From: Owenia fusiformis
Lineage: Eukaryota; Annelida; Polychaeta; Sabellida; Oweniidae
Length of the DNA: 64,000 nucleotides
Assembly (NCBI GenBank): GCA_903813345.2
Contig: CAIIXF020000006.1
Span: forward strand, 36,244,436 to 36,308,435
Direction: 5' to 3'
The position numbers were made by a program, and so were the translations under genes. Shown piece after piece: positions 1 through 28,797 of this stretch. The notes beneath the pieces are model-generated. The model had not been told where the DNA came from, made no database searches, and worked only from the letters and a program-made list of their open reading frames with translations. Position 1 is the stretch's first letter. Each line of letters begins with the position of its first letter.

Positions 1-1596
1 GTCTCTACTAACCCTCCCACAATAGATGACGCCTATGATGATGCCTATGGATATGATTTAAACGAACCATATGAATATGAAAACAAAGTTGAGGAATATA
101 ACGCTCATCAAGGCTTCCTTGAGAAAGGATTTGATGTCGAGGAACTGCGCATGGAACATGAAACCGCAAACGAATGGATGATGCGACGTAAATTTATAGA
201 TGCTCATAGATTTAATTTCCCTAAAGATCGACTTATCTGTTTATCAAGCTGCTTTGTAAATATTGAGAAATATGGTGCCAGGTACCCCCAACAAGTAATG
301 GATGACATTAAAAGGTTAACTCAAGGAATGACTGAAGAACTTAATAAACATAAACAAAAAGCAAAGGACTATACAATGACAAATTTTGTAAGGTCCAGTG
401 GTACTGAAAACAAGAAAGAAGACCCAAGTCAAGCACTGAAAAGGAAATCTGCCGAAGGGGCAGCATATGCTGCAAAAAAGTCTAAGATGTTATTTGTTAA
501 AGCAGCTGGAGAATTTCAAAGTACTGATGTTACACATGCAAATGAGATCTTATCAGGTGATGCTGATGAAATCTTTAACAATATGTCTGCATCTAAAGAA
601 AGAATGAAAGATGCTAAAGAAACTTACACGGGCAACCCCATGTCAGACCCAGGAGCCATAAAAGTGTTGTGCTATAAATTCCTCAGGTTGAGTAAAAAGT
701 TGAACAGTTTCACGGATAAGTCCAAAAATGCTGTTGAGCACATTCATAATGCATGTGCAAGGACACATATGCAGCATAGGGCGGATATAAGACACAGCTG
801 GGAGTCATTGCCCATTTGCTTTGTATGTGAAGTATACATCAATGAGGTCCTTGTTGGAGTTGGAAGAGGTCAAAAAAAGAAGGACGCAAAACATAATGGA
901 TATGCGAATGCTCTAGTGACAATAAAGAAAAAGTTTCTCATAGTTTATAAAAATGAGAAGCCAACCCATGGTCGGTTAGAACTGAGAAGTTCGGATGATC
1001 CATTTGACAATGCTGTGTTTATTAACAAGAGGGATATTATGGAGACCATAGAGCCTCCTAAACCCCCGACCCCTCCACCATCTGAAGAGTCAGAGCCCAC
1101 TCCTGTCCCAGAGCCCAGTAAGCCCACTCAAGAAGATCCCAAAAAGTTGAAACCAACAAAGAAACAGCCACTCCCAGCAAAGGAATTTGTGACGCCACCA
1201 CTTAACCCCGATCCTGCCATGCAAACTAAAGATCTCCCAGTTATCAATCCAAATCCCTTCCAAGACCCTTCCCTCCCTGCTCCAGATATCATGTACACCA
1301 AGAAACCTGCTATTAAAATTGCTGCAAAGTTTAAGTCTGCTTCACTTGTTCCTCAACCGAAGAAACAAGAGGACACCAGGCCTTTGACAGTACAGTGGCG
1401 AGATAGGGCCAACAATCATTCCAATCCTAAGATTGCGAATTTTGTCATTAAGGAACCAATGGAGGCTGAAGATGGGTCTGCAGAACCACTAGGTGTGCTG
1501 GTGAACAGTATATCTGCGGCTCCACAATGTGATGGTAATTTCTCGGTGAAGCCAGGGCAAGATGGCCATGTTGGAGTATTCAGTCTTGGTGGTGAG
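1..1596 (+). CDS. NKRF: NKRF-like exon A (open at left edge): XTBD and dsRBM region
   Basis: Frame 1 is open from the first base, so the exon or at least the CDS begins outside the window; the ATG at 151 is internal because the acidic/Tyr-rich stretch before it (DDAYDDAYGYDLNEPYEYE) reads in frame. XTBD residues lie at nt 160-360. A dsRBM-like block ends in GVGRGQKKKDAKHNGYANAL (nt 865-924). The 3' third is Pro-rich and probably disordered. The second dsRBM starts near nt 1470. The exon ends at GGTGAG followed by the donor gtaagg (phase 0). Reading through the donor would add ten residues to a stop at 1624. Confidence 0.85.
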
Positions 1597-4500
1597 GTAA
1601 GGCTAAACTGGACCTTATTATCCTGAAATAAAGTTAGAAAATGTGTTGAGAAAATAGGGTTGACAGTTGACATGATTATGATGACAATTTGTTCAAAATT
1701 TACGATTTATGTCTCTCATCTCTGCATCTTTTTTATCCACTCAACTTAAATATTCATAAATAATCTCTTATTAACTGTTACTCTATCAGTCGCAGTCAAT
1801 GAAGCAAGCCACAAGAATTAAGTGCATGTACATGCCTGATTAGATTTGTCAAAAAAAATAAGTACTTTTACATATTTTCTGTAGAGAAAACTGTCCAGGC
1901 AGAAAAACCAATCAAAAAATGTTGTGAATTTTGAGCATATTTATTGTTAATTTCAGGTTATTGCTGTAGGGAAAGGAGCCACCCCAAAGGATGCTAAACG
2001 CAAATCAGCAGAACTGGCCATGCCTTTATTAAAACAATGGTGCTGGACTTTAAAGGTAGAATATTGTTCAACAAACAGGTGCAATGTAGCTTATAGGTGT
2101 TACTTGCATCAGAACATCGACTGGACTTATATGGCTTATTGTAATTTCCCGATGTGTGCCTAACATGGTTTTATCCATCATTATTGTAAATACTATATCT
2201 TTCTATCATTTATGCTGCTAGTATTGTTATTGTTATCAGGTTGGTTATTTCTAAATTCTGAGTGTAACTGTAAGTTCCAAAACAATTTGAGAAACATATA
2301 TCCCACGTCATAGGAATTTTCTAAAATTTCAGCAATTATGTAATGTAATGCTTGATTTCTTGAACATTGAATCATTTTTTGTACTTTTCTTCCAAAATTG
2401 TATGAATTTAAATTAAACGACTTTAACTGCGTTTGTTCATGTATAATTGGCATTTTAGACAGGTAAACCTCAGACTGATGGTGATAAAGTATCAAAGGAG
2501 TCCATAGGTGATCTGTCTGCAACAGAGGGGACGTCTGGAGCTAATGGAAATCTAGGCTCACAAATTGAGGGTGACAATATAGGTGAGTTGATATCTCATG
2601 AATTGCTCTCTGCAAAGGAAGATGAATAACACATACAAGGAAGATGCAACAAAGTTTGGAGGGTTACAGAAAACAGTTCCTATGTGTCTGTCCAGGCAAT
2701 AACTAAATACCCTTGGTCTGATATTTGTGTTTATTTTTAACACATATGCTTTGTGGATGGACAAGTGGTGTTTGAAATCTGATTTTCAGAATGCCTGTCC
2801 CCTCAGAAATTTGCATTTTTTTGAAATTTTGCAAATAAGATTGTGGGTTTTGCGATTTAAAATAATGGATTTTGTATCAAAATTTTGAATTTTGTGATTC
2901 AAAAACTATGGATTTTGCTAGGATTTTTCATTAGAAAATTGAAATTTAAAAAAGTGAAAAACTTCAGAATTTTTTGCGCCTTTGAAATTTTGTGAATGGC
3001 ACCCAATTTTGCAAAATTGCATTGCAGTCGCAGAAACGCAAATTATGAGACAGATTTTGTTTCAAAATGATTGTCATAAGTGAATAGGACCTTTGAGTTT
3101 CCAACATGGGTGCTCAATTCAAAATGGCCGCCTTTTTTGTGCAGAATATAATCTTTGATAACTGAAATATCTTTTATGATTATTGCTTTTCATCCCAATA
3201 TTGAATAAAGTTTAATAGGGATATAGTGAAGCCCTCAATCTGTCCATCTGTCCATCAGTCCATTCAGAAAATAGCTCAAATACCAGTGGACATACTATGA
3301 GATCTCTCAGTTTTACTTCACTATACTACATGCAAATGAAAGGCAGTCTAGAGCAGTTTGTTGCAAATATAACATTGTATATCATTTTTTCAGATTTGTG
3401 CTTCGGAAAATCCAAAATGGCCACGCAATGTTTGAATTATCAGTTATTTTGAGATATGGCTCAAATCGAAAGATTTTTGTTTTTGTAGAGTCAATCACAA
3501 TTAATAGGGAGTTTAAGCTTGCAATGTTTTTCACAACCTAAACATGAACAGAAAATATTTAAGCAATTATTTGTATGGGCGATTGGTCATAAGTATAGGT
3601 GGGCATTTTGATTTTATATGCAAGCTTAAACTCCCTATTTTTAAATTTTTCAGATTCATGCATTGAAAATCTAAAATGATCCCTTAATGTGAAAATTCAC
3701 AGTAATTAAGAGGTCCCTTCAAGTGTGGCTCTATTGAAGTTAATTTTCAGTAGAACACAAATATTGTATTCCTTCACTAATATGTACATGTATTTCTAAT
3801 TTGTACCCTTGAAGATACAACATGACCAACATATACTCATGACATCGTTGAGAATGATTTTAAACACTGCATTCATTTTACCATATACTCAATACAATGA
3901 TCAAACACTGCATTCATTTTATTTTACCGTGACAATGATCTGATACACTGCATTCATTCACCATATACTCATGACAATAATCTTATACACTGCATTAATT
4001 CACCATAAACTCATGACAATGATCTGATACACTGCATTCATTCACCATATACTCATGACAATAATCTTATACACTGCATTTATTTTACCATATACGACAT
4101 GACAATAATCTTATACACTGCATTCATTCACCATAAACTCATGACAATGATCTGATACACTGCATTCATTCACCATATACTCATGACAATAATCTTATAC
4201 ACTGCATTTATTTTACCATATACTCATGACAATAATCTTATACACTGCATTCATTCACCATAAACTCATGACAACGATCTGATACACTGCATTCATTCAG
4301 CATATACTCATGACAATAATCTTATACACTGCATTTATTTTACCATATACTCATGACAATAATCTTATACACTGCATTCATTCACCATAAACTCATGACA
4401 ATGATCTGATACACTGCATTCATTCACCATATACTCATGACAATAATCTTTTACACTGCATTCATTTACCATAAACTCATGACAATGATCTGATACACTG

Positions 4501-6980
4501 CATTCATTCACCATATACTCATGACAATAATCTTTTACACTGCATTCATTCACCATAAACTCATGACAATGATCTGATACACTGCATTCATTCACCATAT
4601 ACTCATGACAATAATCTTATACACTGCATTTATTTTACCATATACTCATGACAATAATCTTATACACTGCATTCATTCACCATAAACTCATGACAACGAT
4701 CTGATACACTGCATTCATTCAGCATATACTCATGACAATAATCTTATACACTGCATTTATTTTACCATATACTCATGACAATAATCTTATACACTGCATT
4801 CATTCACCATAAACTCATGACAATGATCTGATACACTGCATTCATTCACCATATACTCATGACAATAATCTTTTACACTGCATTCATTTACCATAAACTC
4901 ATGACAATGATCTGATACACTGCATTCATTCAGCATATACTCATGACAGTGATCTGATACACTGCATTCACTTGAGCAAATACTCATGACAATAATAAAA
5001 AAACAAAATTCTCATGACAGTAATCTATTACACTGCTTTGTTTCAGTTCCTAAGGAGGAGAAATTATCTGTAAATCAGAATATATCTGCTTCAGCCCATT
5101 GTACAGGGGTGATCTTAATTATTGTTTTGACTAGTGTTGTCGCGATGTGGCATAATCGTACATCGATGCATCGGCAATTTTCAGTAGTAAACATCGATGC
5201 ACATCGCGATGTACATCAAGAAAAAGTTCGAGAAAAGTGCACTAAAATACCGAACGCTAATGCACTAAAATACCGAACAGAACAAATTAATAAGAGTACG
5301 GTGGTACATCCTGGAACTTCTAGTAACGGTGAAATGAAAGTAAAGTAATTTTTTTAAATTAATGGTTCATTTCGACTAGCTAAAACAGTTTTAAAGTGAA
5401 AGAATATCAGAAAACATTGGAAAATGTAATAAGACATGAAAAAAAGTAAGCAATTTGCGTCAAAATAAGATAAGAAAGGGCGATTTTTAGCAAATTAAAT
5501 TTTTCAAAAACATCGATGTTTTGTTTCAGACATCGATGCATCGCCAGAACCAGCTTTGGCGATGTATATCGCGATGTATCGATTAATCGCAACAACACTA
5601 GTTTTGACCACGTGAAACTGGGGTCAAAAAGGTGTTGAAAAGGCTGTTAGGCCTGTCAATGTCATACATTCTGTATCACTGGTCTGATGCAGGATGACTA
5701 AGTATCATTAAAGATGGTAGACAAAATTTGTTATTTATAAACCTTTGATATCAGTTAAACCAAGTAAAATACGGATCCCAAATATTTGGTCATTCAAGCT
5801 AATAAAGTTCAGATCATTGTAAACAACTTACAAAGAAATGCTCAAACATCTCCCATATCAGTGAAATTTAGATTTTAAATAAAAGTGTTTGTGTTAAGAT
5901 GGTACTAACTAAAATCACATTTTTTGGCAATGATGATACTTAATCAAACAGGGGATGATATTAACTGTATGGGATGGATACACTGTAAATCTCCACTGAG
6001 TTGGCTTTATCTGTGGTGAATATAATTACATGTATGTCACAACCTCATCATTTTTGTGGATGGTATTTGTTGGTTTGTATTTGACAGTTGGCATTTGTAA
6101 CAAATGGCAGGTGGTGACATTTTGCATGTTAATGCCTTGTCATAAAGTTAGTATTATCATCCATTGAGTTGTATCCTCCTAAGCAAAGTCCATTTCTCTA
6201 AATTTCTTATATTTTGGTCATGATAGGAACTTTATTAGTTTGCCTTGCTAAATATTTCCGTTCTACAATTAATTTTGTAGCTGAAATTGCATGTTGTCAT
6301 CTTGGATGACACTAACTCATCTAAGTATCATCCTGCTGTGGACCAGTGTGAATATTGTTTTTATACCAGGGCTAGTATGTGAAATTTCATGTATCATTTT
6401 GTTTGTTTATACTTAGGTAACTGGATGCACTAAACAGTAATGGGTCTTGGAAGAAAGTCCATGCTATATTTTATATATTTGTTATTTTAAGTTCACCTGA
6501 TGCCTGGATCAAATGGAGTCAAAGGAAGAAAGACAATGTTATATTTTATATATTTATTTATTTTAAGGTAACCGGATGCTACAGAAGATCGGCTGGACTG
6601 GAGGAGGTCTTGGCAAGAAAGAAACAGGCAGAGTTCAACCAGTTTCCCTTGAGAGTGTCATTAATAGGGAGGGTTTGGGTTATACAGGGGATGTCACAAA
6701 TCTTAAACAAACTGTGAAAAAACATGTGGAAAATTATATAAAGTCGGGTAAAACTGGCGAGATGGCATTCTCGGCTGATTTTACATCAGAGGAGCGTAAA
6801 ATTATCCACAATGAGGCTAGAAAATTGGGCTTGAAGAGTCAAAGTTATAACACCAAGATTGGACGATTTTTAGTAGTGAGTCGGAAACGAAATTTAATTC
6901 AGACAATTGAGTATGCATTGACCAATGAGGAAGCTTCAGATAAATACAAAGTTATACCTCCGACTGGGAACATTTTCTAA
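1..6980 (+). CDS. NKRF: NKRF-like gene (5' partial), short form: XTBD - dsRBM - dsRBM - G-patch - R3H
   Basis: Join of 1-1596, 1957-2055, 2459-2582 and 6568-6980; at least 743 codons, against about 690 for human NKRF, with the start upstream of the window. The domain order matches NF-kappa-B-repressing factor: an XRN2-binding XTBD domain (W-x2-RR-x-F start near nt 169), a dsRBM-like region (about nt 700-960), a Pro-rich linker (nt 1040-1380), a second dsRBM split by the first intron, a G-patch (GWTGGGLGKKE) and an R3H domain (RKIIHNEARKLGL, holding R-x3-H). NKRF family proteins are nuclear/nucleolar RNA-binding partners of the exonuclease XRN2 in rRNA processing and transcription control; that role is inferred from family. 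Intron phases agree (0, 0, 1). The long form uses the exon at 8129 instead of 6568. CDKN2AIP also has XTBD but lacks the G-patch/R3H ending, so NKRF fits better. Confidence 0.82.
1957..2055 (+). CDS. NKRF: NKRF-like exon B: C-terminal half of second dsRBM
   Basis: Acceptor taatttcag precedes VIAVGKGATPKDAKRKSAEL, which completes the dsRBM begun in exon A; the G-x-G-x(3)-KDAKRKSAE-A pattern is the conserved C-terminal helix of dsRBMs. 33 codons, phase 0 at both ends; donor gtagaa at 2056. It is too short to stand out as an ORF and was found by frame and splice-site inspection. Confidence 0.82.
2459..2582 (+). CDS. NKRF: NKRF-like exon C: Gly/Ser/Thr-rich linker, branch point for alternative endings
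   Basis: Acceptor cattttag, phase-0 entry, reads TGKPQTDGDKVSKESIGDL and on to ...EGDNI-G, then the strong donor gtgagt at 2583 (phase 1). No domain: a low-complexity linker. The phase matters. Both the G-patch exon (6568, entry GT-AAC) and the giant exon (8129, entry GA-GGC) need one donated base, so this donor can join either. Confidence 0.72.
3503..3639. repeat. Small foldback element with 21-bp inverted ends
   Basis: AATAGGGAGTTTAAGCTTGC at 3503 is mirrored by its reverse complement ending at 3639, with AT-rich sequence between. MITE-like; no coding capacity. Confidence 0.7.
3826..4985. repeat. 42-bp minisatellite/satellite array, about 27 copies
   Basis: Unit of 42 bp (ACTGCATTCATTCACCATAT... 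ending ATAATCTTATAC) repeated head to tail. Two alternating variants (ATAATCTTATAC and ATGATCTGATAC) give an 84-bp higher order, and a longer block of about 570 bp is itself duplicated. The 5' copies are most diverged. Because 42 is divisible by 3 the minus strand shows spurious ORFs with a 14-residue period. The last diverged units run to about 5046, where the array sequence itself makes a TTTCAG acceptor-like site. Confidence 0.93.
5132..5600. mobile_element. hAT-type MITE (469 bp) with 8-bp target duplication
   Basis: Element ends are TAGTGTTGTCGCGAT at 5132 and the near-complement ATCGCAACAACACTA ending at 5600. Both sides are flanked by GTTTTGAC (5124-5131 and 5601-5608), an exact 8-bp target site duplication as expected of hAT transposition. 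The interior contains repeated ATCGATGCATCG palindromes near both ends (subterminal repeats). No transposase; non-autonomous. Confidence 0.88.
6411..6567 (+). pseudogene. Two decayed tandem copies of the G-patch exon start
   Basis: Acceptor + exon start recurs at 6417 (acttag|GTAACTGGATGCAC) and 6492 (attttaag|TTCACCTGATGC), spaced 75 and 76 bp from each other and from the real acceptor at 6567. Each copy keeps recognisable pieces of the real exon (GGTCTTGG-AAGAAAG) but has stops or lost frame. The pattern is a small tandem duplication of the intron end plus exon start that has decayed. Confidence 0.65.
6568..6980 (+). CDS. NKRF: NKRF-like terminal exon D1: G-patch and R3H domains
   Basis: Entry phase 1: the G left by exon C plus GT gives Gly, then NRMLQKIGWTGGGLGKKETG, a G-patch (the ATG at 6576 is internal). 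Next comes REGLGYTGD and the R3H domain with FTSEERKIIHNEARKLGL and FLVVSRKRN, then a stop at 6978-6980 after PPTGNIF. R3H binds single-stranded nucleic acid; the Arg and His of R-x3-H are present. The acceptor is the weak ttattttaag. This is the classical NKRF carboxy-terminus. Confidence 0.85.
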
Positions 6981-8128
6981 GTTACTGACTTTTCATTGGA
7001 TTTATGCTCATTATCCCATTGGACAAGGTTCAGTGGGATACGAATACTGTATTTTCTTTCACAGGTTCGTCCAATGGACAATTGATCATATCTTATGCAC
7101 ATGCCCTATGTCATAAGTTGTGCTTGAAAGCTTCTGTTTTTGACAGTCCAAAATCTAAAAAATAGTTACTACATATCTTTAAAATGCATGACTATTTTTA
7201 TGAGTTTGCCTTAACTAAGGTAATGAAGTGATTTTGTTCATAGTTTATATACATGGAAACATGCTACATTGTCCTCAGCCATTTCCTCAGTAAGGCAGCC
7301 ATTTTGATAAATGGCATCCCGTGGCCATGAGGTTGTGAGTTCAAGACGTATGAGCTCCCTTTGTTTATTCATTTAGGTGTGTCGTTTTTAAGTTGTTTTT
7401 TTGTTAAAACTCCAAAACTCATATAATTATAGCTCAACAAGTAACTTCATCAGTCCTCTTGATATCTCTTGATATTCCCTTCACAGGTGACGATTGGAAT
7501 CTTGAACAGTTCTCTTGATATTTAAATGTAAATGCATACAATCATTTAACATTATCTTTTGACAATTTGTCTTGTATTGTGATCATTTTGAGAAATGTAG
7601 TCTCGGGATCTTGTGTGCTGCTTGGCAATCTGTTCAATGGGATATGCTATTCCATGGCATTGCTGTATTATCTATTTTTCACAAAAAATGATGTAATGAA
7701 CATAGTGAGAGATAGTTGAATGCACTGGCCTTTTACTATGTACTTATGTTTGTATCATTTTGGATTTCAGGATTTAACAAATTGAATAAATAAGCAATCA
7801 TGTACATTAAAACTTTCTCTGTTGCTTTTCAGACCCATTCCTAGTGTGGATCCATTTTCATGGGGTCAGTTATTTCAGAAATGCAATAATCATTTAATTT
7901 AAAAATAATTCTACATATTAACTGGAAATGATAGATTTCGTAGAATAAGACCTAATCTCAGTCATTAAAACAGACATTTAGACTTCATATTTCGAGAAAA
8001 TAATTCTGAAATTTCTTGACCTCATGGATTCCAGTGGATCGTGTGATGGTGCCCTGAATGGCAAGACATGATACTGTTATAACAAAATTTTATACAGTAA
8101 TAATTTAAGTTCTGTCTTGTCATTCCAG
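6981..8128 (+). other. 3' UTR of the short form / intron before the giant exon
   Basis: No coding sequence seen. An AATAAA at 7785-7790 is the best poly(A) signal for the short form. Around 7296-7370 a stretch with GGTTGTGAGTTCAAGAC resembles a pol III B box but no convincing A box was found. The interval ends with the acceptor cattccag at 8128. Confidence 0.5.
7785..7790 (+). terminator. Candidate poly(A) signal AATAAA of the short NKRF-like form
   Basis: Canonical hexamer about 800 bp downstream of the stop at 6980 and before the giant exon. Placement is an inference; no transcript evidence. Confidence 0.4.
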
Positions 8129-11100
8129 GAGGCCAGACAACTAGGGATGGGTCAAATCCTGACCATCAATCTGGGACCACAATCCCTGATACTGCAAACC
8201 TTAATGTAAAAGACAAAACCTTCACACGTGAAGACATCGGGGGCAAAGGTGATATAAATGGTTTCAGAAAGGTTATCAAATATGAATTCAGGTCATATGC
8301 CCTATCTCAGACAATAAGACATATTGTCTTTAAAAAATATTGTGTAGATTTCACAGAAATTGAACTGGATGTTATCCATGAAGAAAGATGTCTGTTTGGT
8401 CTGCTAAATTTGAGTGATTGGGATGATTTTTTAGTAATAGGAAAAGTGAGGGACCTTGAAAGTGTTAGCAAAATGGATGAAAGTTCAGATACACCTAATC
8501 TTGTACCCCACTTGAAGTCTTATACAGATTCACAATTCCACGTAGTAGACAAAACCTTTGCTAGAGCAGATTTTGGATTCATCGATGATATAAATGGTTT
8601 CAGAAAAATCATCAAAAATCATCTGAAGTCATACATTAAATCTCAGACAGTAAGGTACATTATCCTTAGAGATCTACATGAAAATTTCACTGAAGCTGAA
8701 ATAGATGTTCTCCATGAAGAAAAATTTAGGCTAGGACTTTCAAATACAGATGATACGGTTGATTTATTAGTATGCAAGATGAAAGACCCAAAAGGTACTA
8801 GTCAGATTGGTAAAGCTGTATGTACACCATATCTAGTGCCCCATCTGAAACCTGTCCCTCCTCTCAGCTTGGAATCAATGTATACAACACCAGACGATGC
8901 CACTGTACCTGCTATTGGGTTTGATACTGAATCTGACCTTGTATGCTTGTCTGATTCTGATGATGACATTTATGTCGTTGATGATGATGATATCAAAGGT
9001 GATGGTGTAATGACATGGGAGAACAGTGATGATGATGATGTTGAATATGAGTTAGTTGAAACAGATGATGAGTTCAAGGAGTTTCCTGATGGAAATGTGT
9101 GGCAATTTGAACTCCCTCCTAGTCTGTATGAAGAATTTGATGTTCCAGATCTTGATGAGCTACCAATTTTAGAATCTTCAATAGGAGAGAAAGTACTTGA
9201 GTCTAATAATGATGATGATAATGATGACTTGTCTAATCGTGAATGTCCAAACACTGGTAAAATTTTAGACCCTTGTCCTATTTCAAAGGAAACTACTCTC
9301 AAAAGTTGCTTGAAGAAACCTTGTAAGGCAAGTGGAGAAGTTGAAGTCAAAGAAATAAGCATACAGAAATGTAAAGAAATCAAGCCAAATGAACAATCTG
9401 ATAAACTGGAAAAACCAAATGACATGTCTAAGGATCATGAATATCCAAAGACTAAAATTCTAAACCCTGGTCCCATTTCAAAGGAAACTTCCCTCAAAAG
9501 TTGCTTGAAGAAACCTAAGACAAGTGGAGAAATCATGTCAAATGAACCATCTGATAAATTTGAACAATCAAAGGAATGTCCAAAGACTAAAATTCTAGAC
9601 CCTGGTCCTATTCCAAAGAAAACTAGCCTCAAAAGTTGCTTGAAGAATACAGCCAAGATAAGTGGAGAAGTTGAAGTCATATTAACTGAAGCTGAACCAA
9701 ATCGCAAGGAAAACCTTACACAAGTTCTCCTTCAAAGTTGTTTTAAGAAGCCCACTCCAGATAAAAATAACATGAAAGAAGTTTCATTTACTCCATCAAC
9801 AAAATCTGGTCCTCCATCCCTGGAACCTGGAGAAATAGGCAAAAAAATGAAACTCAGAAGTTGTTTCGCTCTTACTCAATCTCTTGCAAAATCTTGTGTC
9901 AATGCAATTCCGATGAAGTCAGACTTTTCAAGACCTGAAAAAAGTTATCACAAGAAAACAATAGTTGATACTGTTCCTGGTCCATTTGTCAGTAAGCTTG
10001 ACATACCAGGTAGTGAAGCTTCTGTAAACATAGTGGCAGATGACAATATATCTCACACACAAACAGATAATTCAAATATGGCTAATCAAAATTTAGCAGG
10101 GAATAAAGCAGAACTAAAGAGCGATCTTCATTCACAGGAATTGACCCAGCAGAATCCTTTAAAAAATCCAAATACATTAAGTGAAGAAGTCCCACAACAT
10201 GAAGTCATTGACTTGACAGAAGATATGACGGATGAAAATTTGACTGGGAATGATTCTGGAGTGAATTTTGGGTCTAGTTCCACGCAAGAGTTGAGCTCAA
10301 AATCTCGGAATATTATCAAAGATTCAAACAAAGTACAACCTCGAGTCATTGACCATGCAAAAAATATTGGTGATGAAAATTTAACAGAAGATAATTCAGG
10401 AGTAGTTAGTAGTTTAGATAAAGTAAAAATTATACAACCTCGAATTATTGACCACACAAAAACCATCAATGATGAAAATTTAACAGAAGATAATTCAAGA
10501 GAAGTAAGTGGTTCAAAGCAAAAGACTTTATTTAGAAAATTAAAAACCACTGATAAAGTAAAGGCTATCAGACCTCATATTGTTGACGTAACATACCTAA
10601 GTGACTCAGATTCAGATTCCTCTGGATCTACTAAGATGCCACTGGATCCTAACCATCTGAGACAATTGAGAAATTCTAAAGTTGTAGACCTATCTGTGTA
10701 TCGCTCATCTCAGCATAAGTCCCCAGAGGAGCAGGATGAACAAAATGTTGAGGAGTTATTTCCAAAAATAAATTCTTCACAAAGTCAACAATCCAAAATT
10801 GTAACTACATACAATTCTGGAATGCTTGATCCAAGGATGATTCAAAATTCTGAAATGCAACTTCCAAGCACAGTTCAAAATCCTGGAATTCAACAGCCAA
10901 TGATGTTCCAAAATCCTGGAATGCAACAGCCAGGGATTGTTCAGAACCCTGAAATACAACAGCCAAGAATGGTACAACTTCCCGAAATGCAACAGCCAAG
11001 AATGGTACAAAATCCCGAAATGCAACAGCCAAGAAAGGTACAAAATCCCGAAATGCAACAGCCAAGGATGACTCAAAATCCTGAAATGCAACAGCCAAGA

Positions 11101-14100
11101 ATGGTGCAAAATCATGGAATGCAGCAGCCAAGGATGATTCAAAATTCCGTAATGCAACAACCAAGGTTTGTTCAAAATCCTGAAATACAACAACCAAGAA
11201 TGGTGCAAAATCCTGGAATGCAACAGCCAAGGATGATTCAAAATCCTGAAATGCAACAGCCAAGGATGATTCAAAATCCTGAAATGCAACAGCCAAGGAT
11301 GATTCAATATCCTGTAATGCAACAGCCAAGAATGGTTCAAAATCTACCAAGGATGGTTCAAAATACTGAAATGCAACCACCAAGGATGATTCAGAATCCT
11401 GGAATACATCAGCCAAGGATAATTCAAAATCCTAAAATGCAACAGCCAAGGATGATTCAAAATCCTGGAATACAACAACCAATGATGGTTCAAAATCCTG
11501 GAATGCAACAGCCAGGGATGCCTCAAACTCCTGGAATGCAACAGCCAAGGATTGTTCAAAATCCTGGAATACAACAACCAATGATGGTTCAAAACCCTGG
11601 AATGCAACAGCCAGGGATGCCTCAAACTCCTGGAATGCAACAGCCGAGGATTGTTCATAATCATGAAATACAACAGCCAAGATTGGTTCAAAATCTTAAT
11701 ATGCAACTGCCAAGGATGTCTCAAAATCGTGGAATGCAACAGCCAGGGATTGCTCAAAATCCTGAAATTCAGCAACCAAGAATGATTCAAAACCCTGAAA
11801 TTCAGCAGCCAAGAATGATTCAAAACACTGGAATGCGACAGCCTGGAATGATTCAAAATCCTGGAATGCAACAGCAAAGAATGAATCCTGAAATGCAACA
11901 ACCAAGAATGGCTCAAAATCCTGGAATGCAACTGCAAAGGTTGAATCCTGAAATGCAACAACCAAGAATGGTTCAAAATCCTGAAATACAGCAACCAAGA
12001 ATTGTTCAAAATCCTGGAACTCATCAGTTACAAATAGATCAAAAGCGATTTCCAGAATTAGTTCATTATCCAAGTACCATTCAACGGCAATTTTCAAACA
12101 CTACTGTAATGCAACCTTCTGGATTTGTTCATCTTGTTACATCTCAAACTGGGGTCCAGAATCCTACTCCTGGAGTTCATCAGTCTCTCATTGGAGTTCA
12201 ACAGACTTCCCCTGGAGTTCAACAAAGTCACCCTGGAGTTCAACAGCCTCCCAGTGGAGTTCAACAGCCTCTCATTAGAGTTCAACAACCTTACTCTGGA
12301 GTTCGGTTGGCATCTGCTACATTTCAGCAGCCTCCACCTGGAGTTCAACAGCCTCCTCCAGGAGTTCAACAGCCTCCCAGTGGAGTTCAACAGCCTCCCA
12401 GTGGAGTTCAACAGCCTCTCATTGGAGTTCAACAACCTCACTCTGGAGTTCGGTTGGCTTCTGCTACATTTCAGCAGCCTCCCCCTGTAGTTCAACAGCC
12501 TCCTCTTGGAGTTCAACAGACTCCCTCAGGAGTTCAACAGACTTCCTCTGGAGTTCAACAGCCTCCTCCAGGAGTTCAACAGACTCCCTCTGAAGTTCAA
12601 CAGTTCTCCTCTGGAGTACAGCAGCCATTTGCTACAATTCAGCAGGCTTCCCTTGGAGTTCAACAGCCTCTCCTAGGAGTTCATCAACCTCCTCTCAGAG
12701 TTCAACAGCTTCCTTCTAGAGTTCAGCAGTCTCCCTTTGAATTTCGCCAGCCTCTTCATGGAATTCAACAGCCTCCCCATGGAAGTCAACACCACCCCCA
12801 TGAAATCCAAGAGCCTAGCCATAAAATTCAAGAGTCTCTTCCTCTTGGCATTCTACCAGCAATTGGATCTACATTATCAGTCAAAAAAGCATCTAAGAAC
12901 CCTCAAATGTCACTTGCCTCATACTATGATGAACAAGATGCAATGTATGGTCCTTCTGAACCTACTGATAACAAATCAGATAAGAAGCCTCCATTGCCCC
13001 TAGAACCCCCTTTGCCGAAAGAACCCCCTTCACCAAAGGAACCCCCTTTGTCATCTCCCAAGACAATGAAGATTGAAACACCTATTTCACCATCAACAAA
13101 CACACATGGAAGCATACCAAAACCAACTGTGTTACCAATAAATGAATCTTCTGAGAATAAAAGTTTGCCTTCTGAATTGGTTGAAAATGAGAAGGGTCAA
13201 GTATCGGTTGATAATGAGCAGAACAAGCCAGCACCGGTCAAATATAAGCAAAATGAGCCGGCATTGGATGAAAATGACCAGACTGAGCCAGCATTAAATG
13301 ATGGTGAGAAGCCAAAGTTAGACGAAAAGAAGGTTGTTAAGTTAAAACAGCAAAAGCGCAAAATGGAAGACATGTACAAGGAGACTTTGAAATCAACTAA
13401 AAAAATGCGAAGAGATATTGATGAGGCTTTAAAGCAGCGTAAAAGAGATATTGAAATAAAAAAAGAAAAAGAACAACAGCGAAAGAGAGATATTGAAGAA
13501 GAAAAAAAGAGGCAGCATTTAGTAGCCATTGAAAGAAGAGAAAGAAGGCTCATGGCAAAAATTGAAACTGAAAATGAACTCAAAAGAGCAGAACTTAAAT
13601 TGAATGCTAAAAAACGTTGTCATGAATCAAAAACATGGGCAAAACATGTGGTTAATTTAGTAGAAACACCTGCCCTTGATTCAGTTGAAAAACCTGCCCT
13701 CGATTCATTTGAAAAATCTACCCTTGATTCAGTTCAACAACCACCCCTTCATTCAAAGGAAATGCTCGCCCTTGATTTAGTAGAAACACATGTTAAAGAT
13801 CCAGTAGAAACAACAATAACTGCATCAGGAGAGGAAATCAATCCAAGAACAGCCATTGATAAAACCATTGAATACCAATTAACAGAACTTACATCATGTG
13901 CTCAGAATTTGTTGAAGAATCAACATGAAAAGCTGAAAGAAACTGCTAAGGGAGTCCTAAACAATGTTCTTGTGGGACCACAAGGACATACACAACCATC
14001 TGGAAAGAAAAATATGTCTCTACATTCCTATGTTGATGAACTTTTGGACAACACATATGATCAATATGACCCTGCAGAACCAACCAATGAAGAGACAGAG

Positions 14101-17100
14101 GATGGAGATATTGTTGCTTATGATGAAAGTATACATGAACCAAACGTTGATTTGGATACATGTGACCAGGAATACAAAGAAAATGTTGATGGTGCTACTG
14201 AAAAGGATGAAAAGATTCAGCAATATGCAAGTATTGGATTCAAAGATACGATTTGTGAACCTAAGATCGAAGAAAGGGTAAATGTTCACACAAGGAGCCC
14301 AAGTGCAATAGAGAAAGAGTTGTACGGAGAAGATTACCAACCAATAGAAATAGAGTATCCACCTGAAGAATCTGATGAAGAGGTTGAGTACATTCAAGAA
14401 GAGCCTCTTGTGGAAGAAAAATATGTCCCAGAGGAGTCAGATGAGTTGGAAAGAGAACTGTATGGCGATGACTACACACCTATAGAGATAAAATATGAGG
14501 ACCCTGACAAAAATGAGTTTGATGAGGCTGATATATTTGAGAGAAATAAGGAAGAAGATTTCTATATTACGCAAATGGAACAGTTCAGGAAATCCATGCA
14601 TAATCAAAATGAATCGAGTGAAGTTCAAGATATGGATGATACAACATCACTAATAACCATAAGTGACACCGAACCATGTATAAATGACACTGACCAGATA
14701 TCAAATCCTAAAATGGTTGAGGAAAAACGTTCAGCATCTGAATCTGAAGATGGATTAATACTGTCTCATATAGAGATACTGGGTGAGCTTGAGGAGCTGG
14801 AAACCAAAGTCAAAGTGCCACATAGACAAGGTACAACCAAAAAACTGAAAGAGAGATTCATTGCATACCAAAGTGTCAAAAGTGAAGAGCCTGAAATATC
14901 TGAGATGCCGACAGAGGAAGATTTGGAAGAATTTTATAAGATCTCTGCTTCAGCTGAGCGAAAAACGAGTCCACGTGGAAGAAAAATTGCTGGACATGGC
15001 CCCATTCTTTGTTATAATACACCTAAGAATCACAATATTCCTGATAATCAGCAAAGCATGCCTAATCAGAACAATGTACCTAATCAGCAAGGTTTACCCA
15101 ATCAGGAAAATAGCGCTGATCTATCTAATCAGCAACATGAAAATGTCCAAGCTATGATACAGATATCTGATTGTAACAAACAAAAGGCTGACCAATATCA
15201 TAGACAAAAATTTAAAAAGCAGCGGTACAAATCTAAGAAAAAGCCTTATATATCAAAGCAACAACAACCCAGGCAACATATAGTTCATGGGGTTACTCAA
15301 GCAAAACAAGAAACTCAAAATGAAAATATGCCTCGTCAGCACAGTGAGTCTAATCAGCCCAGCAAACATCAACATCAAAATGAGATCTATCCAATAGAAT
15401 CAAAACAAACTTTGAAGAATGAAACTAGTAATCCAAATAAGGGTAAAGTATTACTCCCAACTCCAAACATAGCAATAAGCCTTGGCTCTTCAAGTACTTC
15501 TGTCTCTGACAATATTACAGGAACATCTAAACCAGCAAACCACAATAAAGAAAAGCAGCCCGAGGCTCAAAATCGAAGAAAAGTGCTTCTTCCTACTCCA
15601 GTTCAAGCAAAAGCTGTAGAAAAAACAGCAGTTTTTCCCACAGCATTGGAAGTTAGCCAGCCACCATTCCATGGGAATATCAATCAGTTACCTTCAGAAG
15701 TACCAGCAGATCAGGCTACTGTATTTGAGGTTAGTCAGCCACCATCCATAGTTGTAACTACAGATCAGTCAAGGGGTGATGTTGACCTTAGGCCCCCAGT
15801 CAAAGAACAGAATGCAACAAAAATATTCTCCAAAGATCTAGATTTAAGGGAGAAAGAGACAGTTGATAGAGATGAAAGGAAAATAACACCCAAGAAAGAT
15901 ACTGATCACAGGAGTGAATTATCTAATAAGGATTTAGATCTTAGAGACCATACACATTATGGAAATCAAGAAAAGTTGTCTCAAAAGGGACACAAAATTA
16001 CCCAGGATTCAGATCTGAGGGGGGAAATGAATACCCAGAGTTTGAATCAGAAAGAAAAAATTGGTATTGAGGATTCAGACCTAAGGGAGAAAGGTGAGAC
16101 CCAGGATTCAAATCAAAGAATCCAAACTACACTTCTTGATTCTGACCAGAGAAAGCTTGATGTTGACCAGAGGGATCGAAAACCTCTTCTTGACACCAAA
16201 CCAAGTGTTCAGTCTAGTAGTTCGGTAAATACAGTGATTCAAGACAAAATAGGTAAAAGGGGACGAAGTCACGCTGGTGGAGATTTAAGAGGAAAGAGCT
16301 ATGAGAGGGCAAATCCTAGGGGGCAAGGTAGGGGCAATGCTAGAGGACAGAGAAGAGGTAGAGGTAGAGGAATTGTAAGAGAAGGGCGTGGAAGAGGGAA
16401 TTCAAAGGGAGAGAATATGGATAGACCACGCAGAAGTTGTAGTCCACAGAGTGAAACAAGGAGGCCAGAGTATAATCATCACAATGATGATGGAAGACAT
16501 AGATCAAGAAGTCCATTTGGAGAAAAACATCTTCCTTTTGACGGAAGACATAGTTCATATGAAGGAGATCAAAGGAGAAAATGGAACAGCCCAAATAGAG
16601 ACGATAGAGCATCTAGTTCCCATGATAGAGCACATAGCCCTTTTGAACAAGGACATCCTCATTTTGATAGAGGACACAGTCCATATCATTGGGAGCAAAG
16701 CTCATTTGAAAGAGGCCATAGCCCCTTTGAACGAGGGCGTAGCCCTTTTGAGAGAGGACCTTCTCCTTTTGAAAGAACACATAGCCCTAGAAGACACAGC
16801 CCTTTTGAAAGAGGACGTCCTCAATTTGAACAAGAACATGGCCCATTTGATAGAGAACATGGGTCATTTGAAAGAAAACAGGGATCTTTTGAGAGAGAAG
16901 CCCATCATATTGAACGAGGGCATAGCCCTAGAAGACATAGTCCGTTTGAAGGAAGATCTCATTTTGAGCGAGGGCACAGTCCATTTGAACGAGGACCTCC
17001 ACCTTTTGAAAGAGGACATAGCCCATATCAAAACAGGGATCATGCGAGACAGTGGCATAGCCCTCATAGAGACGACAGAGGACATAGTCCATTTGAAAGA

Positions 17101-17550
17101 AGACATAGCCCATTTGAAAGAAGACATAGTCCATTTGAGAGAAGATATGGTTCATTTGAAAGAAGACATAGTCCATGTGAAAGAAGACGTAGTCCATTTG
17201 AAAGAAGACATAGCCCATTTGAAAGAGGGCATAGTCCATTTGAAAGAAGACATAGTCCATTTGAAAGAGGACGAAGTCCGTTTGAAAGAAGACATAGTCC
17301 ATTTGAAAGAGGACAAAGTCCATTTGAAAGAAGGCATGGACCATTTGAAAGGGCACAAAGTCCCTTTAGAAAAGAGGATGAAAGAAAACATTGGAATAGC
17401 CCTGGCAGAGATGAAGAATACCACAGAGAACATAGGCCAAGAGGTTCCTGGCATAGTCCACCAAGAGATGGAAGAGATTTTAGGCCTCCGTTTGACGGCC
17501 GGGATAGGCATTGGGATAATCATGAACCTCGTGATCCAAGGTACCACTGA
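8129..17550 (+). CDS. Giant 9.4-kb exon: degenerate R3H pair plus very long repeat-rich, SIM-containing disordered protein
   Basis: One uninterrupted frame from the acceptor cattccag (8128) to TGA at 17548, about 3,139 codons with no internal ATG start needed: it is open upstream of any Met and enters in phase 1, matching the donor at 2583. Order: two R3H-like units (8250-8460, 8580-8800); acidic stretch with SUMO-interacting-type motifs; KSCLKK repeats (9250-9760); MQQPRMVQNPE decamers (10850-12030); GVQQPP heptamers (12160-12840); Pro-rich; charged coiled coil (13310-13640); paired ELYGxDYxPIEI motifs; KVLLPTP and D-x-DLR repeats; RG box; SPFER repeats. Joined to exons A-C it would make a protein of at least 3,746 residues with XTBD and dsRBMs. 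I know no named family with this layout. A separate gene with its own 5' exon is possible. Confidence 0.78.
8250..8800 (+). other. Two tandem R3H-like units, both without the signature Arg
   Basis: Unit 1 has DINGFRKVIKYEFRSYALSQ, then FTEIELDVIHEERCLFGL and FLVIGKVRD. Unit 2 has DINGFRKIIKNHLKSYIKSQ, then FTEAEIDVLHEEKFRLGL and LLVCKMKD. Both align with the R3H of the G-patch exon (FTSEERKIIHNEARKLGL, FLVVSRKRN). The His is kept in both, but the Arg four residues before it is Leu in unit 1 and Ile in unit 2. They look like a diverged duplicate of the R3H exon. Confidence 0.72.
8935..9075 (+). other. Acidic tract with SUMO-interacting-type motif
   Basis: LVCLSDSDDDIYVVDDDD puts short hydrophobic runs against Asp/Ser acidic runs, the layout of SUMO-interacting motifs. 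More candidates in the same exon: VIDLTED at 10204-10224, IVDVTYLSDSDSDSS at about 10579-10623, and LITISDTE at about 14650-14673. Confidence 0.55.
9250..9790 (+). repeat. KSCLKK protein repeats (4 units) and KEVSF motif
   Basis: Three close units of KILDPGPISKETSLKSCLKK type (from about 9256, 9451, 9586), each followed by a Lys-rich spacer, then a fourth shorter unit LLQSCFKKP (9727). KEVSF at 9775-9789 fits the RVxF-type docking pattern for protein phosphatase 1 as a bare motif; this is suggestive only. Confidence 0.7.
10850..12030 (+). repeat. Coding minisatellite, 30-bp unit encoding MQQPRMVQNPE-type decamers, close to 40 units
   Basis: Head-to-tail 10-residue units, consensus MQQPRM-[VI]-QNP[EG], frame kept throughout while codons vary; a few units are shortened by whole codons, showing selection to keep the frame. 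Gln/Pro/Met/Asn-rich, likely disordered. Confidence 0.93.
12160..12845 (+). repeat. Coding minisatellite, 21-bp unit encoding GVQQPPS-type heptamers, about 30 units
   Basis: Consensus GVQQPPS/GVQQPLL. A longer block ending VRLASATFQQPPP occurs twice (around 12303 and 12447), so part of the array was duplicated as a larger piece. Frame maintained; drifts to EIQEPSHKIQE at the end. Confidence 0.92.
12907..14085 (+). other. Repeated MSLxSYxDE...Y-P-EPT motif flanking the coiled-coil region
   Basis: MSLASYYDEQDAMYGPSEPT (12907-12966) and MSLHSYVDELLDNTYDQYDP followed by AEPT (14014-14085) share a Ser-Leu-x-Ser-Tyr/Asp-Glu/Tyr-Pro-Glu-Pro-Thr pattern. The acidic/Tyr stretch just before XTBD (nt 25-105) is loosely similar. 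Function unknown; possibly a short binding motif. Confidence 0.55.
13310..13640 (+). other. Charged coiled-coil / single alpha-helix segment
   Basis: About 110 residues rich in Lys, Arg and Glu with no Pro or Gly (KRKMEDMYKETLKSTKKMRR, then repeated QRKRDIE). Typical of a coiled coil or stable single helix, the only clearly ordered segment in the C-terminal 2,900 residues. Confidence 0.75.
14311..14500 (+). other. Paired ELYGxDYxPIEIxY motifs
   Basis: IEKELYGEDYQPIEIEY (about 14311) and LERELYGDDYTPIEIKY (about 14446), separated by an acidic stretch with PEESDE repeats. Tight conservation of aromatic and Gly positions in an otherwise disordered protein suggests a docking motif. Confidence 0.6.
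15430..16200 (+). repeat. KVLLPTP pair, EVSQPP pair and D-x-DLR repeats
   Basis: KVLLPTP occurs twice (near 15445 and 15584), EVSQPP twice (15650, 15730), and Asp-x-Asp-Leu-Arg type units (DVDLR, DLDLR, DLDLR, DSDLR, DSDLR, then DSDQR, DVDQR) run from 15780 to 16170. Evenly charged short linear repeats. Confidence 0.65.
16255..16435 (+). other. RG-rich box
   Basis: RGQGRGNARGQRRGRGRGIV followed by REGRGRG: an RG/RGG-type segment, usually RNA-binding and a target for arginine methylation. That is notable because the other gene in the window belongs to the methylarginine-hydrolase family, but no functional link is shown. Confidence 0.75.
16615..17380 (+). repeat. SPFERR/HSPFERG coding repeats, more than 30 units
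   Basis: Six- to seven-residue units [HR]-SPFER-[RG] with frame maintained to near the C terminus, which ends Arg/Gly/His-rich (RDPRYH). Each unit offers a Ser-Pro phosphosite next to Phe and Arg, an SR-like composition. The +2 frame across it is open for 393 codons only because of the repeat. Confidence 0.9.
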
Positions 17551-17644
17551 ACATAGGCACAATGCTTAAGAAGCTACGTGTATCTATAGATTTTAAGGAT
17601 TCTATGAAAAGCATTGTGCTGTCCATGTTATCAGAATATATGAC

Positions 17645-17650
17645 ATTAAA
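17645..17650 (+). terminator. Candidate poly(A) signal ATTAAA of the long form
   Basis: First near-canonical hexamer after the stop at 17550, before the 66-bp array. The next AATAAA (18536-18541) lies inside the inserted element. Confidence 0.35.
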
Positions 17651-17695
17651 CTACATGATGTAAGCGGCCATGTCAAGTAGCATAACATAATGAAT

Positions 17696-18172
17696 GTTGA
17701 GTTCAATGTAGTTATGCAATCAGATTTGACCAAATTTTGAAGGAGTATGATGTAAATGGATGTTGACAACTATATAGCTATGCCGTCAGATTTGACAAAG
17801 TTTTGAAGGAGTATGATATGAATGGATGTTGACAACAATATAGCTATGCCGTCAGATTTGACCAAATTTTGAAGGAGTATGATGTAAATGGATGTTGACA
17901 ACTATATAGCTATGCCGTCAGATTTGACAAAGTTTTGAAGGAGTATGATATGAATGGATGTTGACAACAATATAGCTATGCAGTCAGATTTGACAAAATT
18001 TTGAAGGAGTATGATATGAATGGATGTTGACAACAATATAGCTATGCCGTCAGATTTGACCAAATTTTGAAGGAGTATGATGTAAATGGATGTTGACAAC
18101 TATATAGCTATGCCGTCAGATTTGACAAAGTTTTGAAGGAGTATGATATGAATGGATGTTGACAACAATATA
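17696..18172. repeat. 66-bp tandem array, left part (about 7 copies)
   Basis: Unit GTCAGATTTGACAAAGTTTT... through GGATGTTGACAACAATATAG, 66 bp (the TGTTGACAAC segment recurs at 17761, 17827, 17893 and so on). Ends abruptly at TA (18171-18172), where the 9.2-kb segment begins; the same array resumes at 27421 in the same orientation. Confidence 0.92.
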
Positions 18173-18341
18173 CAGTACAAGTATTTTCAAAGCTCACACC
18201 ATGCCATGCCGTCGAGATGCCGGCTGCTCTACGCGTGCATCGCAACCGCTGCACGCCCGCTCTTCGTCTGTGCGACGAGCGCTCTTCGTGCTCACAGCGA
18301 CAGCGATTCTACTGCTTAGCTAGCGCTTAGCATGCGCTATA

Positions 18342-20165
18342 CGACCGATGTAGTTATCAGATTGTAATTTATACATGTATGCACTGTACATATGCTTAGC
18401 GGTAGAATTCACAGTGAGCACGAAATGAAAGCAAGTTTGTTTAGATTGTAATTGAACTGGATGTTTTTATATCCATTATACTGTATGCGGTCGTAATTAA
18501 CCATTGGTTCACTAATATGCTCGATACTTTAAATGAATAAATTGGTAGTAAGTTTATCAGTTGAAAAAGCCATAATACACACAAACAACATGTAACTGAA
18601 TTCAAATTGTATATAATCCACGGTGTTTTCTTTTTTGGAAACACTCCGATAGGCATCGCCATCGGGATAGTTCTGCCGATCGGCAAAGTCATCGGGACGG
18701 CATTTCCGTCGGCACAGTGTACATCAATGCATTGTGCAACTTACCTGTACATCGGAGGATCCAAGAAAACATCGATAAACTCATAATAATATTTCTTGAG
18801 AGTTAGATTATGTTTTGAGCGGGTAAAAATTGTGTCCACTATTAAGTTATATTCTTGAAACAATTCAATAAATAAGTATACTTAGAACTAGTTTTTTTCA
18901 ATAATAACTATTATTGCCGTTTTAAAAATGTAGAAATCCTTTTATAGAGCATTCTGTACCATAATTTATAAAATAATCTTTCAGACGGGCAAATCACAAT
19001 GAGGACAAATGTTTACATGAACGATCTTGTTTCCATTTCGTAAAAACAAAAATATTGAAGTACGATATTAGATCGGATATTAGCGTACCTCTGTGGAAAA
19101 GAATCAAAAGATACTCGCAGTATGATGATTTGTCATTTTAGAAATTCGTCAATTTGACTAAACTATCCCCCGGAACTAGCCTTTCAGGAAAAGCAAATGC
19201 GACAGATACATGTATCTAAAGAAAGTTACATTTTATTCTTGATTTCAGGGAATAATTGTAATGATAAACAGAAATTGCAATTATTATTGTTTTGCTCTAA
19301 CATTCAATTATGATTCAACGCTTTCCCTCAATTTCTATCAGATCATCGATCCCAGACTTCAGCAAATATTCCAATCATATTTTGCGTTTTATCAACTTTT
19401 CGAAAAGCTATACGCATATGATACTACAACTACTAACTGACAGTGGTTTATCGTAACTTTTTGCAAATATGGATGTTTATACTGCTTGTATCTTATTCCA
19501 GGGAGTTTTATAGAGACAGGACTTCCTCTTCACAATGTAATTATATATTTTCTGTTTTGTAGGTTCCCGTGGGTAAGATACCAACAAGAACAATACGGCC
19601 CATCCTAAAGGGCACAGACCCGTCAGTGGCGTTCTTCAAGTTATAGCACATGGAGATATAGTTTGTGAATCTTGCCTACACAGCTGCTCGATACAAGTGC
19701 AAAATACAAAATAATAACCCTAATATAATATAGATAAATGTTTGGCATGCATTGTGTTTCTGTTTCATTGTTAAATTATTTGATAACTTATAATAAGCAG
19801 ATAAGTTAGTTGCTTTTCAGGTATTAAGCGGCGATGTAGGACTGAAAACCAGCGTCACACATGTACATTTTCTCGGATATTCCTCCATAAGCAGATATAC
19901 TTTGTTTGCATGTTTTAATTTTGATTTGATTTGTTTTTTTTTTGAATTACACGAATTAGATAAAGTCTTTCAAATGTCACCAGTCTTTGGTGGTGAGATT
20001 TCATGTAGGAATTAGAATTAGATTAAGATTTATTACGATCTGTTTTGTTTGCATCGTTCATTGTATAACGTTGATAAAACACAAGGGCAGCATTGGAATT
20101 ACAGAATTGTGCGATTCCCTACCTCCCATTCATAGATTTAGTCTCTTGCCATGGTATTCAAAATT
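18342..20165. other. Interior of the 9.2-kb element, no gene seen
   Basis: AT-rich sequence with a CpG patch (18640-18730) carrying repeated CATCGGGA-type words. Only short unsupported frames on both strands. Confidence 0.5.
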
Positions 20166-20169
20166 ATAT

Positions 20170-20532
20170 TTGTTCTGTCATTCTGATTCCCGTGTCGGGA
20201 CATTCTGATCTATCGGAGTCTCACTTTCTCTAACCCTTTGGTATTCCAAAGGATAAAACTTGCTGTGGATCACACAATGGTGTCGGGAGATTAAACCAGT
20301 GAATGTTCTGATCGTCGCAACATTCGATACACCGAGAGATTTCACGGATTCATACATGCATACTGTACATGTATATTCAGCGCAGTATGCATGTACATTC
20401 CATATATCCTTCCAATAATAAGTGCTGCATGTATAAACCTGTGAAACCTCTCGGTCCATCGGATGTTGTGACGATCGGAACATTTTACTGGTTAAATCTC
20501 CCGATACTGGAAATAAGAATGACAGGGGAAAT
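20170..20532. repeat. Foldback element with 80-bp-scale hairpin arms
   Basis: TCGGGAGATTAAACCAGTGA at about 20285 is mirrored by TTACTGGTTAAATCTCCCGA ending near 20508, and the arms match inward to a loop around GCATACTGTACATG (about 20355-20395). Outer TGTCATTCTGATTCC / GAATGACAGGGG also pair, with about 100 extra bp in the left arm. Confidence 0.75.
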
Positions 20533-22514: not shown

Positions 22515-23083
22515 CAGGCCCGTAGCCAGGATTTGCCAGGGGGGATTCGTGGAATACTAGTACATGTGGTATCACTTTTGAAAGATGTACAAGTATTCAC
22601 CACAATAGAGTGAAATATTTGCTAAATAATCATAAGAAATAAACATCTGCAGCGGCAGCAGTGCAACATCTTTATATTAAAATTAATAAAAAGAGCATGC
22701 TATAAACTGTAACTATATATAAGCTTATATTATGTAACATGCAAAAACAATAAATCTATTTCAATATTGCTAATATAGAGCTTTTTGCCTTCGAAATTGT
22801 CACGATTGCCGCCACCTGTAATAAAACAATAGAGAGGTTAAGCTACACGTTCTTTAGGTGAACGCGTAAAACTTATTTTTCCCTGGGGTACAGGCCCGTA
22901 GCGAGGGGGGTTCGATGGGTTCGGGCGACCCCCCCTGGCCAAAAATTTTCTCAAAATTTTGCAGTTTTCTGAGCATTTTTAAGTGATTTTGGCCATTTTT
23001 GGACCAAAATTGTCACAAGTGAACCCCCCCCTGGAATTTATCAAAAAGTGAACCCCCCATTGGCAAATCCTGGCTACGGGTCT
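22515..23083. mobile_element. 'CAGGCCCGTAGCCAGG' MITE pair
   Basis: CAGGCCCGTAGCCAGGATTT at 22515 and CAGGCCCGTAGCGAGGGGGG at 22893 are left ends; AAATCCTGGCTACGGGTCTG ends at about 23084. The 22893-23084 part is a compact palindromic copy with G- and C-runs inside the arms; the outer left end belongs to a second, broken or nested copy. A related copy abuts DDAH exon 4b (63443-63642). Confidence 0.75.
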
Positions 23084-25441: not shown

Positions 25442-25614
25442 GGAATAGCGTACCCAATGTTAAAGGCCGGCCATAAACCAAAACGCAATATGAGAACATA
25501 AATAATTTTTCATTTTCATACAACTGAAGGGATAATAAATGCTTTAATATAAAGTAAACGTATTTATAAATGTATTTTAAGCGTAAAATCAAAGCACAAC
25601 CATTTACTAAAAAG

Positions 25615-28781: not shown

Positions 28782-28797
28782 TACAAGATTAAATATG

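Follow-up and report, generated by a model that had tools for sequence, protein, structure and literature searches.

An NKRF-type gene of Owenia fusiformis with a giant open reading frame as its probable alternative terminal exon

Introduction

An open reading frame (ORF) of 3,148 codons lies behind an NKRF-type gene, on the same strand, in the polychaete Owenia fusiformis, and the question is whether it is part of that gene or of another one. The locus is contained in a stretch of 64,000 nucleotides (assembly GCA_903813345.2, contig CAIIXF020000006.1, positions 36,244,436 to 36,308,435 of the forward strand), here called the window, to which all coordinates refer. We propose that the NKRF gene probably has two alternative 3'-terminal exons, the second being this ORF, which arose by duplication of the exon encoding the G-patch and R3H domains.

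NKRF guides an RNA-cutting enzyme to its targets. In rRNA processing it connects the exonuclease XRN2 and the helicase DHX15; proteins of this type recruit and stimulate DHX15 by means of their G-patch. According to excerpts of the respective papers, human NKRF binds XRN2 via its XTBD, which is needed to keep XRN2 in the nucleolus (PMC7054742), and NKRF forms a complex with DHX15 and stimulates its activity (PMC10511037, PMC13111387). The giant ending would swap part of this RNA-handling machinery for a scaffold of 3,100 residues. No giant NKRF form was met in titles and abstract openings on NKRF domains, isoforms, alternative last exons and molluscs, which cover this literature in part.

The NKRF-type gene and its standard form

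The window opens inside the gene, which lies on the + strand and encodes an XTBD, a double-stranded RNA-binding motif (dsRBM), a G-patch and an R3H domain. Exon 1 (1..1596, +; 5' end outside the window) holds the XTBD (residues 46-124) and the dsRBM, and it ends at the donor GAG/GTAAGG (the slash marks the splice junction). The XTBD is recognized by Pfam (1.2e-21), and its sole match at E <= 0.001 among solved structures is the XTBD of PAXT-1 (5fir, 9.3e-8). The cysteine and the tyrosine that contact XRN2 are named in an excerpt of PMC7054742; in the 5fir alignment, the tyrosine is kept and the cysteine is replaced by alanine. The dsRBM of exon 1 reaches 25.0 bits against the Pfam dsrm cut-off of 23 when tested as a piece of 109 residues, and stays just under it (22.7 bits) with the whole of exon 1 as the query. 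A second, weaker dsRBM is split by the exon 1/2 junction, with its C-terminal half in exon 2 (1957..2055, +; phase 0 to 0), and its dsrm score of 14.4 bits is below the cut-off.

Splice-site percentiles are given as ranks within the window and come from weighted scoring of the sites. The sites of exon 2 rank at the 94.8th (acceptor) and 90.4th (donor) percentiles. Exon 3 (2459..2582, +) is a linker of 124 nt; its donor at 2583 (TAG/GTGAGT) leaves phase 1 and ranks at the 99.7th percentile of all GTs in the window, with a score of 6.9. The standard terminal exon, exon 4 (6568..6980, +), is entered in phase 1 at the acceptor 6568 (TTTTAAG/GTAA) and encodes a G-patch (Pfam, 1.1e-10) followed by an R3H domain (1.6e-8) and a stop codon. 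Its closest solved relative is the G-patch of human NKRF (PDB 6sh6, 3.2e-7). A motif scan found an AATAAA at 7785..7790 (+), which may serve the standard form as poly(A) signal. The joined translation of this form has 743 residues from the window edge and a single, terminal stop. Domain order (XTBD, dsRBM, G-patch, R3H) and the tyrosine needed for XRN2 binding are those of animal NKRF, as described in excerpts of PMC7054742 and PMC10511037.

Within 6415-6620, the acceptor of exon 4 and the first bases of the exon have partial repeats upstream (85.7% over 56 nt, plus shorter pieces), which resemble small decoy copies of the exon start.

A giant open reading frame compatible with exon 3

The giant frame (8104-17550) begins 1.1 kb downstream of exon 4. 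For bases drawn independently at the observed composition, the log10 probability of a 3,148-codon open frame is about -95, and the two other forward frames of the exon contain 149 and 388 stops. The proposed exon (8129..17550, +; 3,140 residues, ending in a stop) is entered at the acceptor 8129 (CATTCCAG/GAGG), which ranks at the 99.8th percentile and, like that of exon 4, is read in phase 1; the donor of exon 3 is thus compatible with both acceptors, although the chance of a shared phase, taken alone, is 1 in 3. Joining exon 3 to the giant exon gives 3,746 residues from the window edge with one terminal stop.

The earlier note on this DNA, made by a model from the letters alone, had named these splice sites and phases together with a standard reading of 743 residues and a giant one of 3,746, and all of this was reproduced. 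It had also let the giant form keep the XTBD and the dsRBMs, which holds for the XTBD and for the dsRBM of exon 1 tested as a piece, the second dsRBM being too weak for Pfam. The exchange of the G-patch that it described agrees with Pfam, which detects no G-patch in the giant ORF: the full ORF has 0 families at E <= 1, and at E <= 10 seven pieces of it (10501-13200 not among them) match neither G-patch nor R3H.

R3H-like copies and probable origin of the giant exon

Two related segments of about 75-88 residues each open the giant exon: copy A (8209..8472, +), preceded by a segment resembling the G-patch tail, and copy B (8536..8799, +). They are 52% identical to each other over 75 residues. 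When either copy is aligned with the exon 4 R3H domain, the score is reached by none of 1,000 shuffles, and the match runs upstream into the G-patch tail. When a profile of copies A and B was compared with the other 1,098 ORFs of the window (at least 30 codons), exon 4 was found at E 6.7e-8 and the next ORF at 2.4; the best of 2,000 shuffled R3H sequences gave 0.006. Comparison with hhalign relates the copies to exon 4 with a probability of 93.5% (E 2.2e-7), again into the G-patch tail, and the best exon 1 match has an E-value of 0.64.

Predicted structure points the same way for copy A. The best of its five AlphaFold models has a pLDDT of 83.2 (the others, 58.7-62.5), and the top Foldseek match of this model is the R3H domain of human SPAG7 (PDB 2cpm; probability 1.00, E 0.032, TM 0.59). 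Copy B is modelled with a pLDDT of 69.5. In the alignment, the histidine of the R3H motif RxxxH is kept in both copies, whereas the arginine is replaced by leucine in copy A and by isoleucine in copy B, so nucleic-acid contact by these segments is probably impaired. The copies therefore share with R3H domains such as that of SPAG7 the motif histidine and, for copy A, the predicted fold, and differ from them by the missing arginine and by escaping the Pfam R3H model. The claim of the earlier note that both terminal exons begin with R3H-type material is supported for the giant exon, by profile comparison and for one copy of the two by predicted fold; exon 4 begins with the G-patch.

Wider searches added no relatives. 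Against solved structures, phmmer with the tandem R3H-like region gave nothing significant (best E 0.11), nor did a profile of all three R3H-like segments (best E 0.41). Pattern-matching stretches were found in viral contigs for the tandem region (19) and for exon 4 (six), and in genome contigs for the giant ORF (79), and none was confirmed; as the contigs are those of viruses and prokaryotes, this negative result is uninformative for animals.

The starts of the two exons have the same layout. In exon 4 and in the giant exon alike, 98 nt separate the acceptor from the homologous Arg-Glu codons; this agreement was noticed post hoc, and counting places its chance between 1 in 41 and 1 in 3, given the 41 in-frame positions and three in-frame AGs in 8104-8226. 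Only length and phase match here, residue similarity being gone: the first 33 residues of the two exons share two identities, and since the alignment has gaps in this stretch, we claim no residue-level homology for it. The most economical reading is that the terminal exon was duplicated and that, in the copy which became the giant exon, the acceptor stayed while the G-patch part decayed.

One transcription unit or two

Within the giant exon, the earliest in-frame ATG (8473) lies past copy A; for copy A to be translated from an ATG, an upstream exon must provide it. This exon may be exon 3 of the NKRF gene, as we propose. Alternatively, part of NKRF could have been duplicated in tandem and become a separate gene downstream, to which the giant exon would belong; this gene would have a promoter of its own and, within 6981-8128, a small 5' exon providing the ATG and a donor in phase 1. 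The R3H homology and the common spacing at the exon starts would fit such a gene equally, and one candidate first exon is available, running from the ATG at 7004 to a donor at 7065 (CAG/GTTCGT, score 2.1). One candidate with a donor score of at least 2 is, however, the level expected by chance: control segments of the same length contain 0.96 on average, and 48% of them have at least one. Moreover, tblastn of NKRF exons 1-3 against 6981-8128 gave no match at E <= 1.

CpG content bears on the same question. Methylation in the oyster increases steeply past the start site, is level in gene bodies and falls slowly beyond the gene end, and promoters are generally unmethylated (excerpt of PMC4378273). 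The observed/expected CpG ratio (CpG o/e) of the window is 0.31 in 1-5120, 0.31 in 5612-8128 and 0.23 in the giant exon (8129-17550), and 0.91 in 18201-43000, the depletion ending at about 18,200. Before 18 kb, the only 1-kb bin that exceeds 0.5 is 5001-6000, which holds a transposable element (see below). A DDAH gene further downstream in the window provides a reference: its exons at 44.2, 58.3 and 59.4 kb correspond to consecutive parts of DDAH1 structures (1.5e-11, 3.5e-5 and 7.4e-13), and its start has a CpG o/e of 1.02 over about 5 kb (43500-49000), its body one of 0.32 (49300-63000). The giant exon is preceded by no multi-kilobase CpG-normal start like that of DDAH. Since the depletion is not broken by such a stretch, the CpG footprint favours a single, long-transcribed unit that extends from NKRF to about 18.2 kb. 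In favour of a gene start of its own for the giant exon is a short patch of raised CpG o/e over exon 4 (6651-7050; up to 0.85, in 6701-7000). Taken together, these data make two separate genes unlikely, and the view of the earlier note, one NKRF-like gene with two alternative terminal exons, draws support from the exon 4 homology, the 98-nt spacing, the late ATG and the continuous CpG depletion.

Across the window, CpG o/e forms a mosaic in which depleted stretches (about 0.3) seem to mark transcribed bodies, set off from intergenic DNA and a gene start with normal values (0.9-1.0). This suggests that the CpG footprint of transcribed bodies can help to tell one transcription unit from two without RNA data.

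A giant form that retains the G-patch is very improbable. It would be made by joining the giant exon to an internal phase-1 donor of exon 4, and a suitable GT exists at 6748 (CGG/GTAAAA), which would keep the G-patch and read into the giant exon; this site scores 0.9 against 6.9 for the donor 2583, and it would cut the R3H domain of exon 4.

Composition and codon constraint of the giant tail

Behind the R3H-like copies, the giant exon encodes an acidic S/K/D/E-rich region (8854..10803, +), two in-frame tandem arrays of a 33-bp unit PRMVQNPEMQQ (10813..12019, +) and of a 21-bp unit PGVQQPP (12169..12799, +), a K/E-rich region (12784..16203, +) and a basic tail rich in R, S, P, G and H (16204..17547, +) with RG runs and 21-bp HSPFERR repeats. 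The acidic region has four SC[LF]K motifs, as against 0.0 in 200 shuffles, and several hydrophobic-acidic motifs that we take to resemble SUMO-interacting ones. Two LYG[ED]DY and seven D[VLS]D[LQ]R motifs (the latter, 0.0 in shuffles) are found in the K/E-rich region. PP1-type RVxF motifs were considered for the tail and rejected, as they are not above chance (two versus 1.0).

Substitutions among the repeat units were compared by codon position, after units less than 60% identical to the consensus had been dropped (kept: 15/15, 16/20, 29/30, 13/13 and 6/11); the copies are not independent, which limits the p-values that follow. For an excess at third positions, p is 0.004 and 0.057 in two 33-bp arrays, 0.02 and (for HSPFERR) 0.19 in two 21-bp arrays, and 0.012 in the five arrays pooled. 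PGVQQPP shows no excess (p 0.90). Purifying selection on the arrays thus appears visible but uneven. A reading in which the giant exon is seldom, if ever, included by splicing, as a formerly used part now drifting or a region transcribed only by read-through, would agree with the lack of an excess in PGVQQPP and HSPFERR and with the near-even differences between copies A and B by codon position (27, 20 and 24 of 75; dN/dS 0.53 by one method), yet it is scarcely credible beside 3,148 open codons with tandem arrays still in frame, the third-position excess in one 33-bp array and in the pool, and a CpG depletion like that of the DDAH body.

The giant stop is followed by a probable 3' untranslated region (17551..18200, +) with a 66-bp tandem array (17689-18172). 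Sequence related to this array occurs 10 kb away, at 27300-28000.

Points against an alternative terminal exon

Several observations weigh against a duplicated, alternatively spliced terminal exon. The acceptors of exons 3 and 4 are weak (66.4th and 80.6th percentiles), and three other acceptors equal or near in strength to 8129 (7065, 7487 and 7833) lead into no ORF of 150 codons, so that the strength of the acceptor proves little by itself. The R3H assignment has to be made without Pfam, and no R3H domain is among the best 50 of 399 Foldseek matches of copy B, whose model is weak. The scarcity of identities at the exon starts, the upper figure for the chance of equal spacing and the unevenness of selection on the arrays belong here as well. 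Finally, the CpG depletion is less uniform at finer scale: of the 358 windows of 300 bp in 1-18200, 24 exceed 0.7, and although most lie on the transposable element, CpG-richer patches are also found at the start of the window, at 2801-3150, in exon 4 and in the interior of the giant exon (13201-13600). Of the intergenic windows, 20% have values no higher than the maximum of 6981-8400 at 300 bp, 4% at 500 bp and none at 1,000 bp. A promoter that is short (a few hundred bases) or CpG-poor is compatible with the 300-bp data, because a fifth of the intergenic windows of that size are equally low.

A possible role for the giant form

For duplication history, junction use, isoform balance and function, we infer the following scheme. 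The copied exon would have kept its acceptor and phase and lost the G-patch sequence, its R3H-like segment being doubled again within the exon, and would then have acquired a long, composition-biased tail built from repeats. Splicing of exon 3 to exon 4, with the poly(A) site at about 7.8 kb, would give standard NKRF; skipping of exon 4 and use of the strong acceptor 8129 would give a form of at least 3,746 residues. This form would keep the XRN2-binding XTBD and a dsRBM, lack the G-patch and carry two R3H-like segments without the R3H arginine. The giant tail is likely to be a multivalent tether that places XRN2 without DHX15: it would hold XRN2 on RNA or in a nuclear compartment, uncoupled from DHX15, and the giant form would thereby compete with standard NKRF or redirect it.

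XRN2 terminates transcription behind poly(A) sites, and the locus might in addition be a sensor of XRN2 supply, in which a duplicated terminal exon was turned into a feedback scaffold; we consider this idea improbable. Plentiful XRN2 would stop transcription soon after the poly(A) site at about 7.8 kb and yield standard NKRF. With scarce XRN2, 10 kb more would be transcribed, the acceptor 8129 would win, and the resulting giant, XTBD-bearing and G-patch-free NKRF would stabilize or concentrate the remaining XRN2.

The proteins CDKN2AIP, CDKN2AIPNL and PAXT-1 are not known to have a G-patch or a giant tail or to come from an NKRF splice choice. Like the proposed giant form, they bind XRN2 via an XTBD, and CDKN2AIP is thought to keep XRN2 in the nucleoplasm (excerpt of PMC10511037). 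Human NKRF has forms of 690, 705 and 784 residues that vary at the N-terminus and all contain the G-patch, R3H and dsRBD (excerpt of PMC7054742), whereas here it is the C-terminus that would be exchanged. If the alternative terminal exon is real, a natural form with the XRN2 part and without the DHX15 part would separate both functions in vivo.

A precedent for an exon of this size is found in ankyrin-G and ankyrin-B (ANK3 and ANK2), where the giant exon is internal. This 7.8-kb exon is present in some forms only and, like the one proposed here, adds a long scaffold to a smaller core (excerpt of PMC5422562). The giant NKRF exon differs in being terminal, in replacing a domain exon and in resembling a duplicate of the exon that it replaces; if used, it would show that a terminal exon can be duplicated and grow into a giant alternative end, a route unlike that of the ankyrin giant exons.

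Other elements in the window

Intron 3 contains a miniature inverted-repeat transposable element (MITE; 5132..5600, +) whose terminal inverted repeats match at 14 of 15 positions and which is flanked by an 8-bp target duplication, GTTTTGAC. We take it to be hAT-like from its inverted ends and the length of the duplication. The MITE is CpG-rich (o/e 1.78 over 5131-5603). The same intron has a tandem array at 3849-4996, with about nine copies of a 127-bp unit (about 3 x 42).

Rfam at gathering scores and ARAGORN gave no match, nor did Pfam in one frame of 17551-32550 scanned with stops tolerated. The DDAH gene contains a tandem array (58984-59457) of about 3.6 copies of a 133-bp unit, which comprises an exon and its acceptor (KEIFVGISKFTNAGGAQAVARAFP...); a shortened 93-bp repeat precedes the array (region 58870-59460). 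By eye, only the final copy, the one that matches DDAH1 structures at 7.4e-13, continues into further coding sequence.

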